A DNA stretch of 64,000 bases, from the NCBI RefSeq assembly GCF_000198775.1, contig NC_014718.1:361155-425154 (forward strand). Direction: 5' to 3'. This document shows, piece after piece, positions 1,931 through 61,183 of this stretch (position 1 is its first letter; every line of letters begins with the position of its first letter). The DNA is from Mycetohabitans rhizoxinica HKI 454 (GTDB taxonomy: Bacteria; Pseudomonadota; Gammaproteobacteria; Burkholderiales; Burkholderiaceae). The position numbers and the translations under genes were made by a program. The notes beneath the pieces were generated by a model. That model searched no databases and had not been told where the DNA came from. It saw only the letters and a program-made list of their open reading frames with translations.

Positions 1931-3181
1931 TTAATCAAGCGTGGGCTGAGCGGAAATGATATTGGCGACAGGTCGAGTTTCGCCGGGTTGTCCACTGCCG
2001 GCAAGTTTTTTTACAACACCATTCTCATCTTGAACACCGAGAAAAGTGGAACCACCGCCATCCAAATTAAACGAGGAAACACCAATCCCTTTATCGGCGT
2101 CTTTATATCTTCCCGTTGGATCAGCACCCATCTCCGTGATCTCTTGCCATCCTCCCTCTTCTGGCTGCCTCCCCTTTATTGGCACACCCAAATCCCGTTT
2201 GCCGTCTGTTGTTGTCAGCGTATGCATTACCAAGTCACCTGGCTTGTCGGACAATCGGTGCGTTCCGTCGGTTGGGTCAACGGACAATTCGGGGCGCACG
2301 CTCACCGCGGCCCGCTCGTTACGTTCATTGGCATGCGTTAGCGCGCCGGCAAATTTGTTTAATGGATTATCCTCCCCTTCTGCGTTGCGATATTGAAGCC
2401 GGCCATCGTTGTTTTCCAACCTCGCCCTCTGTCCATTCAATGCGAGCACTGGACCACTCGTGATGCCGACTTTACCGTCCTGCAGCAATTGACCATAGTC
2501 ATTCTGCCAAGGTGGAGCGACGTCGACATGGTCGGATCGAGTTGCGGTCGGGCCCACCGGCCTGCCATAGTCACTCTTGGTTGCTTTTCCTTCACTACCA
2601 CCTTGCATAATCTTGAGGCCGGACTTGTGCACAAAATACCCGCCATTGATGATGGCGGACCGCTTCGGCGCTTGCGCTGCAAGCGCCTGGGGCGGCTGCG
2701 GCGGTTCCCCTTCCTTCGTCCCGATCACCTTGCCAGACTTCGTCCCACCTTTCACGATAAGCATATTGTAGGTCGCAATACCATCGCCTACGCTATCGCT
2801 CTGTTTTTCTGATTGCGTTTTTGGAGGCGGAGTAAGCATATCTCGGATCTTCGCAAGCGGTGTCCCTGGCGGTCGCACGCCGCCAGGGCCGCCTTTGATC
2901 GTAACCTGAACGATTCCCGCACCGTGGCTTTGCACCTTGACGCTCTTCTCCCGCACCAAATATCCTTGGGCACGAGCGGCGAAACGGGAAAGTGCTTTGG
3001 CGGCGTTGGGATTGTTTTCAAGCTTATTTCGTATCGCATCGAATTCGTCTGTCTTGGATAAAGAGCGGGTCGGCTTAGGAGACGCGCGCTCAGACGATGA
3101 CGGTGCACGGGTCGGCGAGGTCTGCGTATTCGTGTTCTGCGCTTCAAATTCGGTCTGGTTAGACGTGATAGTCAGTCTCAA
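1931..3181 (-). CDS. Phosphodiester glycosidase (NAGPA-like) family protein, candidate type III effector
   Basis: The C-terminal two thirds carry hallmarks of the NAGPA/phosphodiester glycosidase fold: INGGYFVHKSG, then GITSGPVLALNG, then FNLDGGGSTFLG near the end. This family includes the enzyme that uncovers GlcNAc-phosphodiesters; the substrate here is unknown. The first ~60 residues are Ser/Thr/Pro/Asn-rich with no Sec signal or membrane segment, as in many type III substrates. I chose the TTG at 3181 because AGGAG lies eight bases upstream. The frame also opens at a TTG at 3259, which has no ribosome site. A PIP/hrpII box with a TATAAC -10 lies upstream (3328-3388). The gene stands alone. 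The fold is fairly sure; secretion is inferred. Confidence 0.72.
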   Translation of the reverse strand: MRLTITSNQTEFEAQNTNTQTSPTRAPSSSERASPKPTRSLSKTDEFDAIRNKLENNPNAAKALSRFAARAQGYLVREKSVKVQSHGAGIVQVTIKGGPGGVRPPGTPLAKIRDMLTPPPKTQSEKQSDSVGDGIATYNMLIVKGGTKSGKVIGTKEGEPPQPPQALAAQAPKRSAIINGGYFVHKSGLKIMQGGSEGKATKSDYGRPVGPTATRSDHVDVAPPWQNDYGQLLQDGKVGITSGPVLALNGQRARLENNDGRLQYRNAEGEDNPLNKFAGALTHANERNERAAVSVRPELSVDPTDGTHRLSDKPGDLVMHTLTTTDGKRDLGVPIKGRQPEEGGWQEITEMGADPTGRYKDADKGIGVSSFNLDGGGSTFLGVQDENGVVKKLAGSGQPGETRPVANIISAQPTLD

Positions 3182-3327: not shown

Positions 3328-3388
3328 GTTATAGGCGTGCTGTTGTGTCTGTAATAGCGCCAAACGAAGTCCAGACGTCAAAAGCGAA
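3328..3388 (-). promoter_or_regulatory. PIP (hrpII) box with -10 element, upstream of the phosphodiester glycosidase gene
   Basis: On the minus strand TTCG (3388-3385) and TTCG (3368-3365) are exactly 16 bases apart, giving TTCGC-N15-TTCGT. Thirty bases later is TATAAC (3333-3328); an offset of 32 also gives the consensus YANNNT (TAACGT). This matches the TTCGB-N15-TTCGB-N30-32-YANNNT arrangement known for HrpX/HrpB-controlled promoters of Xanthomonas and Ralstonia. Predicted transcription starts near 3320, leaving a leader of about 140 bases to the TTG at 3181. Confidence 0.6.
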
Positions 3389-59771: not shown

Positions 59772-60120
59772 CCGCGACGGCAGCGTATCGCCACCGGTTT
59801 CATCGATCGCGCGCCATGCCGCCCGCGAGCGTTGCACGGCGACATCCCGCGGAAACAGCGGTGCAGTCTCGTCGCCGTTGGAGTCCTCGATTGACCAGCA
59901 GGTCAGTCACCGCAACAATCTCACGCAGATGCCCGAGCACGACGCCGCGGCAGACTATGTCGCCCATACGAGCGCGCGACCACGCAAAGTCGGAACTAGT
60001 CGTTGCGATCGCCCCGAAACCGAGAAGTTGCAGATAGCGGATGCTCCCTACGGCTGATGCATTCGGTAAGACGACGCAGCCGGATTGATGCAGTTGTCGA
60101 AAGGCGGCGGTGCGGGACAT
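59770..60120 (-). pseudogene. Isocitrate lyase / PEP mutase superfamily remnant
   Basis: From 60120 the minus strand reads SRTAAFRQLHQSGCVVLPNA, then GSIRYLQLLGFGAIATTSS and LREIVAVTDLLVN, the N-terminal barrel of PEP-mutase/ICL-like C-C lyases. It then jumps, in another frame, to IEDSNGDETAPLFPRDVAVQ and AAWRAIDETGGDTL, which normally lies about 25-30 residues further on. The loss includes the region with metal-binding acidic residues, and the C-terminal half is absent. It is broken by deletion, frameshift and truncation. Confidence 0.72.
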
Positions 60121-60235
60121 TTCGTCTCTGTCTGCAAAGGGGTGGCGTAGTCCGGCACACATCGACCCGATGGCACGCCGGGGACCTGCCACGTCGATTA
60201 ATGACCATTGTACATCCCGAGCCGGCGGCTCGATG

Positions 60236-60296
60236 TTCGCTTTCGAACCGCCTCCTTCGCGAATCAATCGTGCGCCAATGGCCGCTCCGTCATAGT
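60236..60296 (+). promoter_or_regulatory. PIP (hrpII) box with -10 element, upstream of the 58-residue protein
   Basis: TTCGC (60236-60240) and TTCGC (60256-60260) are separated by exactly 15 bases, the perfect plant-inducible-promoter box. Thirty bases later is CATAGT (60291-60296), matching YANNNT. All three elements meet the published TTCGB-N15-TTCGB-N30-32-YANNNT rule. Predicted transcription would start near 60303, about 64 bases before the ATG at 60367. It indicates control by an HrpB/HrpX-type AraC regulator. Confidence 0.68.
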
Positions 60297-60366
60297 GAGT
60301 GTCGCGGAGAACACCCGCGTACACACCACTAGGGCCTTCTGGCCCCTACTTTGTTGGAGGATAGCA

Positions 60367-60543
60367 ATGAGTGTCAATGCTCCTGGCGCTGTGGCTTCTG
60401 GCGCTTTTAATAAGGATGATTTTGATAAGAAATTTGATTCGATGACTGGCAAGCAAAAGGAGGCCTACCAAAAATTGGTTGACGAATTTAACCGAACCGC
60501 TTTTCAGGGAGCTGCTCCAAACTTGAAGCCCGCCCTCGACTAA
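60367..60543 (+). CDS. 58-residue small protein behind a PIP box, candidate type III-associated protein
   Basis: Strong ribosome site (TTGGAGG, six bases before the ATG) and a clear stop at 60541-60543. The protein begins SVNAPGAVASGAFNKDDFDK, continues with a charged amphipathic helix (MTGKQKEAYQKLVDEF) and ends with PNLKPALD. There is no signal peptide, membrane segment or known family. Its codons are much richer in A/T than neighbouring genes (runs such as AATAAGGATGATTTTGA), suggesting transfer. The PIP promoter upstream and an 11-pair hairpin downstream define a single-gene transcript. It could be a small secreted protein, a helper or a chaperone; size and Ser/Ala/Asn-rich N-terminus fit a type III substrate, by inference only. 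Confidence 0.72.
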   Translation: MSVNAPGAVASGAFNKDDFDKKFDSMTGKQKEAYQKLVDEFNRTAFQGAAPNLKPALD

Positions 60544-60555
60544 CGCTAATACAGA

Positions 60556-60592
60556 CCAGCGACGCGTCCATGAACGACCGCCGCGTCGCTGG
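60556..60592 (+). terminator. Hairpin after the 58-residue protein gene
   Basis: CCAGCGACGCG (60556-60566) and CGCGTCGCTGG (60582-60592) are perfectly complementary over 11 bases with a 15-base loop, 12 bases after the stop. Only A residues follow rather than T, so it may stabilise or terminate weakly. Confidence 0.5.
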
Positions 60593-61183
60593 AAAACGCC
60601 TTTACGGTTGCGCGCTGTGTGGACCGTAAAGCACCTCTACAAAAGCCGCCCTGCATCGTTGAAACAGGTTACGTATCGACATAAGTAAAGTATCGACAAG
60701 GCATCCTCCGACGCAGTGGGTCGAGATCCTTGCATTTCTATCACGAAACACCGCCGTCAAGCTTGCTGTACCGGACCACAGCATTGACCGCACCGGTTGT
60801 GGACTTTGGAAAGTCATGGCACGCGGCAAGCAGCGCCAGGATTCGATCGGTTACAGCCACGAAACGGGCCTCTTCCAACACTTGGGCGTCGTCGGGCAGC
60901 GGCAATTCGCTGCCCAGAAGCAACACCAGCAGCTGCTGATGCGCTTCACCCGGAATGCCACGCCGTCCATTAGCGTCCGTTCATGGACAGCACCGCTGTG
61001 CAGCCCCAACGCGAGCAGCCCTGCGTGCGCTCTGACCAAGCGTCGCCATGCTCGAGCCTGCATAGCGTGCGGCTCCGGCGTTTGCCGCGATACCGGTGGG
61101 GCTTACCGCCAAGTTGAGGAAGCTAATGATGTAGCGCATTCATTAGTGATACAAAATTTTAATGCAGCGCGACCGACAAGCGC
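60593..61183. other. Gene-free, probably decayed DNA
   Basis: No family recognised. Minus-strand frames around 60740-60930 and 60851-61063 have protein-like composition and may be two frames of one broken gene, but I cannot name it. A block at 60712-60745 resembles 3926-3960. Confidence 0.3.

Follow-up and report, generated by a model that had tools for sequence, protein, structure and literature searches.

The 58-codon gene and its upstream signals

Within the analysed window, a 64,000-nucleotide stretch of Mycetohabitans rhizoxinica HKI 454 (C1:361155-425154, C1 being the 822,304-base megaplasmid), a 58-codon orphan gene is preceded by a PIP box, a -10 element and a ribosome binding site. 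The features of the locus, in window coordinates, are as follows:

60236..60260, plus strand: PIP (hrpII-type) box, TTCGC-N15-TTCGC, identical in strains B12, B47 and B49
60291..60296, plus strand: -10 element CATAGT (fits YANNNT), 30 nt after the box
60332..60345, plus strand: short GC-rich stem in the 5' leader, from the terminator scan; the fold of the whole leader is weak (z only -0.75)
60356..60360, plus strand: ribosome binding site GGAGG, 6 nt before the ATG
60367..60543, plus strand: 58-codon orphan coding sequence, ATG at 60367 and TAA at 60541-60543
60556..60592, plus strand: 11-bp inverted repeat 3' of the stop codon (z -2.56)

The assembly analysed consists of 3 contigs with 3,750,138 bases; the accessible text of PMC3102044 gives 3,750,139 bp for the HKI 454 genome and 822,304 bp for the megaplasmid pBRH01, and places the type III secretion system (T3SS) cluster on the megaplasmid. 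M. rhizoxinica resides inside the fungus Rhizopus microsporus, and the stable symbiosis requires the T3SS; TAL-like proteins aside, the sections concerned in the same two sources describe the T3SS substrates for colonising the fungal host as mostly unidentified (PMC10746252; PMC11261895). The 4 kb around the 58-codon gene match three M. rhizoxinica megaplasmids at 98.3-99.2%.

The box, TTCGCTTTCGAACCGCCTCCTTCGC, agrees with the TTCGB-N15-TTCGB pattern of the PIP-box/HrpB regulon, and CATAGT lies within the 30-32 nt at which YANNNT is expected past the box. The initial annotation had stated that box, spacer, -10 distance and -10 sequence all match the HrpX/HrpB rule, and each of them does fit the form given for Burkholderia s.l. 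in the relevant section of PMC8565462, TTCG[CGT]-N15-TTCG[CGT]-N30-32-[CT]A-N3-T. Judged from the -10 element, transcription would start near 60303. The ribosome site had been described as strong; in a stretch of this kind, about 0.04 starts of this quality are expected. As for the hairpin assigned to the gene, the 11-bp stem behind the stop codon is present, but it has no T tract and was not picked by the terminator scan, whose single match was the leader stem (1.8 in shuffles).

The gene had been thought small enough for automatic annotation to miss, yet for three sibling strains RefSeq has an entry, a hypothetical protein (WP_157864538.1 in two of them, WP_338861251.1 in the third). In the literature searched, supplementary tables aside, the gene is unmentioned and the accession WP_157864538 absent. 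Its GC content and GC3 are both 0.46, the latter below that of all 63 coding sequences compared from three stretches of sibling strains; with the stop codon left out, GC1, GC2 and GC3 are 0.55, 0.38 and 0.47. The description of an AT-rich orphan was supported; GC3 is lower still in some other ORFs behind boxes with a -10 element (0.33, 0.40). Over 100-base intervals GC ranges from 0.39 to 0.49 across the ORF, compared with 0.57-0.62 in the adjoining DNA. This dip is not unique, as 60600-60749 also shows 0.47-0.48 with no recognised gene.

The encoded protein is neutral, with a mass of 6.3 kDa and a pI of 6.1. A single-sequence AlphaFold model of modest confidence (mean pLDDT 69.9, pTM 0.37) places helices at residues 16-25 and 28-47, and with this model as query Foldseek returned no PDB match at E up to 10. 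No family was found in Pfam (E up to 10) or NCBIfam (E up to 1). Three weak PHROGs matches (E 0.04-0.10) are each of unknown function, and a sequence search of the PDB gave two chains with a best E of 0.87. The N-terminal signal of type III substrates is judged by serine content, V at position 3 and the lack of an early acidic residue, and for plant-type substrates roughly 10% serine is expected at the N-terminus. The 58-residue protein has V at position 3 and no acidic residue before position 17; serine makes up 3 of its first 50 residues, a content below that level, which weighs somewhat against a type III substrate.

Between a MerR/TipAS gene and the 58-codon gene lies the remnant of a PEP-mutase family gene (59800-60324, minus strand, Pfam E 5.6e-9). 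In all three sibling strains the series of locus tags has a gap of one number between the MerR gene and the 58-codon gene. We take this gap for a pseudogene that PLSDB omits; the PEP-mutase-like remnant lies at that place.

Given these surroundings, the transcript might be HrpB-driven and the ORF meaningless, either a remnant or a regulatory RNA. The decayed look of the neighbourhood, with a broken gene just upstream on the other strand, would suit such a reading, as would the second GC dip and the one coding SNP seen among strains, which is non-synonymous. Against it stand the good ribosome site at a fitting distance, the RefSeq calls in three strains, the excess of GC1 over GC2 and the lack of any Rfam match over the locus at E up to 1. 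We regard a meaningless ORF as improbable; the 58-residue protein is quite probably made.

Box and -10 element on the megaplasmids

The rule examined was the box together with YANNNT 30-32 nt downstream, with -10 elements at other spacings as background. The box alone occurred 142 times in the whole genome, compared with 127 for the reversed control pattern, and 5 times in the window, compared with 2.31 ± 1.60 in 100 shuffles, 9 of which reached 5. Taken by itself, the box is therefore at background frequency and says little. Downstream DNA was examined for 99 of the 142 boxes, namely the 33 listed for the megaplasmid, without exception, and 66 out of 67 listed for the chromosome. Among these listed matches, 14 of the 33 megaplasmid boxes carried a -10 element at 30-32 nt (1.99 ± 1.42 at other spacings, maximum 5). 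On the chromosome 8 of the 66 did so (3.73 ± 2.25, maximum 9); this is hardly an enrichment and counts against the explanation that we favour below. The M. endofungorum megaplasmids gave 8 of 28 boxes in strain B13 (2.01 ± 1.24, maximum 6) and 11 of 26 in strain B60 (2.04 ± 1.42, maximum 5). On all three megaplasmids, that of HKI 454 and the two of M. endofungorum, the full rule shows strong enrichment. The window itself holds three full-rule sites, while 0.10-0.13 were expected from 60 simulated windows at each of two Markov orders, none of which had more than one.

The full rule was also linked with what lies downstream. An ATG-initiated ORF of at least 40 aa with a Shine-Dalgarno site followed within 40-160 nt for 8 of the 22 boxes with a -10 element, but for only 3 of the 77 without (Fisher p 0.0002). 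The 58-codon gene is one of these eight; another, behind the box at C1:702057, lies inside a longer ORF of 572 aa, and that site is probably false. A further full-rule box, C1:701515, stands 129 nt before the ATG of the 572-aa ORF with a stop between, and box and -10 element recur there in M. endofungorum B13 and B60.

Box and -10 element might nevertheless have come to stand before an unrelated orphan gene by chance. Boxes alone are at background frequency, and about 2 of the 14 megaplasmid full-rule sites are expected by chance to be false, which puts the value for any given megaplasmid site being real at about 0.86. Against coincidence speak the excess of full-rule sites and their association with downstream ORFs. 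We consider coincidence hardly more probable than a meaningless ORF. To judge from its anatomy and these counts, the promoter of the 58-codon gene very probably works.

The same signature stands before T3SS genes. In a 43-kb T3SS stretch of strain B12, three of the six boxes carry a -10 element: one precedes hrpB1-sctI, one lies inside the end of sctP ahead of sctQ, and one precedes sctD. The same three full-rule boxes are present in the HKI 454 genome, where a 4.8-kb stretch corresponds at 99% to the annotated sctP-sctD genes and the sctD model matches with E 1.1e-11, below the model's cut-off. A 484-aa AraC-family gene adjoins sctC, as read in B12, and from its place, size and domain we infer that it is HrpB; a T3SS and a putative AraC-type HrpB regulator were thus both found, the latter in the sibling strain. 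Effector-like genes also lie behind the rule. The box at C1:567872, with its -10 element at spacing 30, precedes a TAL-effector-like frame (Pfam TAL repeat above cut-off; the AvrBs3 match, E 2.8e-59, falls short of the cut-off of its model), and a chromosomal full-rule site precedes an F-box gene (E 1.5e-6). F-box-like and TAL-like candidates, which may or may not be the genes found here, are induced by fungal contact according to the pertinent part of PMC7482071. These T3SS and effector-like genes, together with the enrichment on three megaplasmids, support the HrpB-type control first proposed for the 58-codon gene.

Seven ORFs behind full-rule boxes were scanned against Pfam and NCBIfam, and four of them had no family at E up to 0.01. 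One of the seven, a 416-aa ORF in the window (1931-3181, minus strand), has a TTG start and an N-terminus rich in Ser/Thr/Pro; its only Pfam match, to NAGPA, is sub-threshold (E 4.5e-5). It stands behind the second full-rule promoter of the window (box at 3364-3388, minus strand, -10 element at spacing 32), and box, -10 element and start are kept in M. endofungorum B13 and B60. By sequence, this ORF is a better conserved effector candidate than the 58-residue protein in the same window. A box with a -10 element at 3129-3153 (plus strand) faces the start of the 416-aa ORF from the opposite side; a similar convergent box in B13 and B60 lacks the -10 element there, so that this site may be chance. 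The box at C1:67555, with a -10 element and a 110-aa ORF, is conserved in HKI 454, B13 and B60. On the chromosome, the full-rule box C2:931499 is followed by a 99-aa AT-rich ORF (L067:323-622). A conjugative plasmid of M. rhizoxinica holds a partial relative of this ORF, with 51% over 53 residues, where no gene is annotated.

Distribution of the gene and of a second small-protein family

The gene and its box are present in all four M. rhizoxinica strains compared, HKI 454 included. The idea that orthologues might lack the box was not borne out, as all three other megaplasmids carry the gene at 98-100% with box and -10 element unchanged. Across the four strains, 361 bases contain just two variable sites, and conservation therefore cannot separate constraint from recent ancestry.

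By tblastn the gene was absent from all five M. endofungorum megaplasmids. Four of these five records have a DMT gene under the match at the same locus, and the box is absent from the locus stretches of strains B5 and B3, as it is from the lists that cover the entire records of B13 and B60. A 56-aa hypothetical protein in B5, considered as a counterpart, looks unrelated by eye. None of the seven other same-genus genomes searched has the gene, and among 72,556 plasmid records (E up to 10) no relative appeared beyond the M. rhizoxinica megaplasmids. Phages and viral contigs gave no relative, genome contigs no close one. The proposed Burkholderiaceae-wide search for joint conservation of gene and box thus revealed no clear relative outside M. 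rhizoxinica, and on present sequences the gene is a species-restricted orphan.

The search of 397 other family genomes (E up to 0.05) yielded nothing beyond nine weak non-self matches with E 0.005-0.04, seven of them in one genus (38-40% over 48 residues, E 0.005-0.014 per genome). One of the seven matched proteins was scanned and belongs to the FliP family, and three more give the same SctR-type alignment, without gaps over 48 of the 58 residues. Its score of 72-75 was reached by none of 1000 shuffles (24.5 ± 4.1), which speaks against chance. The bacterium's own SctR (read in B12), however, scores 26, that is, background, third-codon identity is 21%, and no neighbouring SctR part matches around the 58-codon gene. 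Since hundreds of genomes were searched, we take the SctR match as chance and not as a fossil, with some room left for more than chance. Of the remaining two matches, that in genome G025 (E 0.0385) was discarded, the stretch containing only short ORFs; that in genome G107 has E 0.033.

A second family of tiny proteins, designated family B, was found behind the same kind of promoter. Its founder is a 70-aa ORF (C1:128370-128579, minus strand, GC 0.50) preceded by the box at C1:128697; the HKI 454 copy contains an undetermined base in the assembly. By tblastn, relatives 48-67% identical to this ORF occur in all eight Mycetohabitans megaplasmids found, with two tandem copies in strain B60. In all 13 loci examined the box has its -10 element at 30 or 31; these are nine copies in the eight records, the HKI 454 copy and three further loci (L099, L101, L183), some of which may be duplicate strains. 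The proteins are 68-87 aa long, share a C-terminus and appear in RefSeq as hypothetical proteins such as WP_104078488.1 and WP_338910442.1; three members scanned gave no clear Pfam or NCBIfam family. Among 150 family genomes, only four had family B at E < 1e-20, all of this genus, the next best value being 0.08. Four small Mycetohabitans genomes (1.1-1.2 Mb) had no clear copy. A relative in an Oscillospiraceae MAG was set aside, its sequence reading by eye like part of a transporter ATPase.

Given the same promoter, size class and layout, the 58-residue protein could be a distant member of family B. A single BLASTP comparison gave 25% identity over 44 residues (E 0.007), with a shuffle fraction of 0.028. 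Against this, the family B profile ranks the protein only 77th of 1982 scored (itself and its own shuffles), hhalign gives a P-value of 0.064, and the C-terminal motif common to the family B copies is absent. For want of a profile match and of the shared C-terminus we rejected homology, and distant membership is rather unlikely; it concerns ancestry and would be compatible with the explanation favoured below.

A putative HrpB-controlled small protein

We consider it rather likely that the 58-codon gene belongs, as a monocistronic unit, to the HrpB (PIP-box) regulon and that its product acts with the T3SS in contact with Rhizopus. An AraC-type HrpB-like regulator would bind the box at 60236-60260, and RNA polymerase would then use the -10 element at 60291, giving a short single-gene transcript along with the T3SS. 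This transcript would encode the 6.3-kDa, mostly helical, AT-rich-coded protein, which would most likely work alongside the T3SS when the bacterium meets the fungus. As to its nature, a small protein confined to this species, either a type III substrate or an accessory protein, seems most likely. That it leaves the cell by the T3SS is a guess from regulon membership, and the chance of this is somewhat short of even.

The box may instead be HrpB-driven and the protein stay in the bacterium as a small T3SS chaperone, adaptor or regulator, a reading that overlaps the favoured one in all steps but the last. The product is small, neutral and helical (pI 6.1), and the T3SS cluster contains two small hypothetical proteins (76-77 aa), one of them weakly HrpD6-like. 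The gene, however, lies about 0.3 Mb from that cluster on the megaplasmid with no annotated effector gene adjoining, and neither the family databases nor the three PHROGs matches point to such a function. A protein that stays in the cell is unlikely in our view, though less so than distant membership of family B.

Since its promoter is of the type found before T3SS genes, the 58-residue protein is probably one more part of the toolkit for life inside the fungal host. A bolder reading, less likely than not, is that HrpB controls a whole group of single-gene proteins in Mycetohabitans, all of them tiny (58-99 aa), AT-rich and fast-changing. These would be type III substrates of peptide size, adapted to the fungal host, and would include the 58-residue protein, the genus-wide family B and the 99-aa chromosomal ORF. 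If this were true, there would be tiny substrates too small for effector surveys, and the presence of family B under the same box makes such a type III-associated class worth testing. A clean HrpB-type promoter with a species-restricted 58-residue protein, together with family B, provides short, testable candidate lists.

Compared with family B, the 58-residue protein is alike in tiny size, promoter anatomy and lack of a clear family; the copies of family B have a C-terminus in common and come from both of the Mycetohabitans species examined, whereas the 58-residue protein occurs in M. rhizoxinica only and does not have that motif. With the HrpB/HrpX (PIP-box, hrpII-box) regulon of Burkholderia s.l., Ralstonia and Xanthomonas it has box, spacing and -10 element in common, following the rule as set out in the section cited (PMC8565462); it differs from the regulon genes in having no family, and HrpB control is putative here. 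The btl/MTAL genes of Mycetohabitans encode large repeat proteins known to serve as effectors, and no sequence relation to the 58 residues was seen; what they share with the 58-codon gene, as far as the cited part of PMC11261895 describes them, is the hrpII box upstream.
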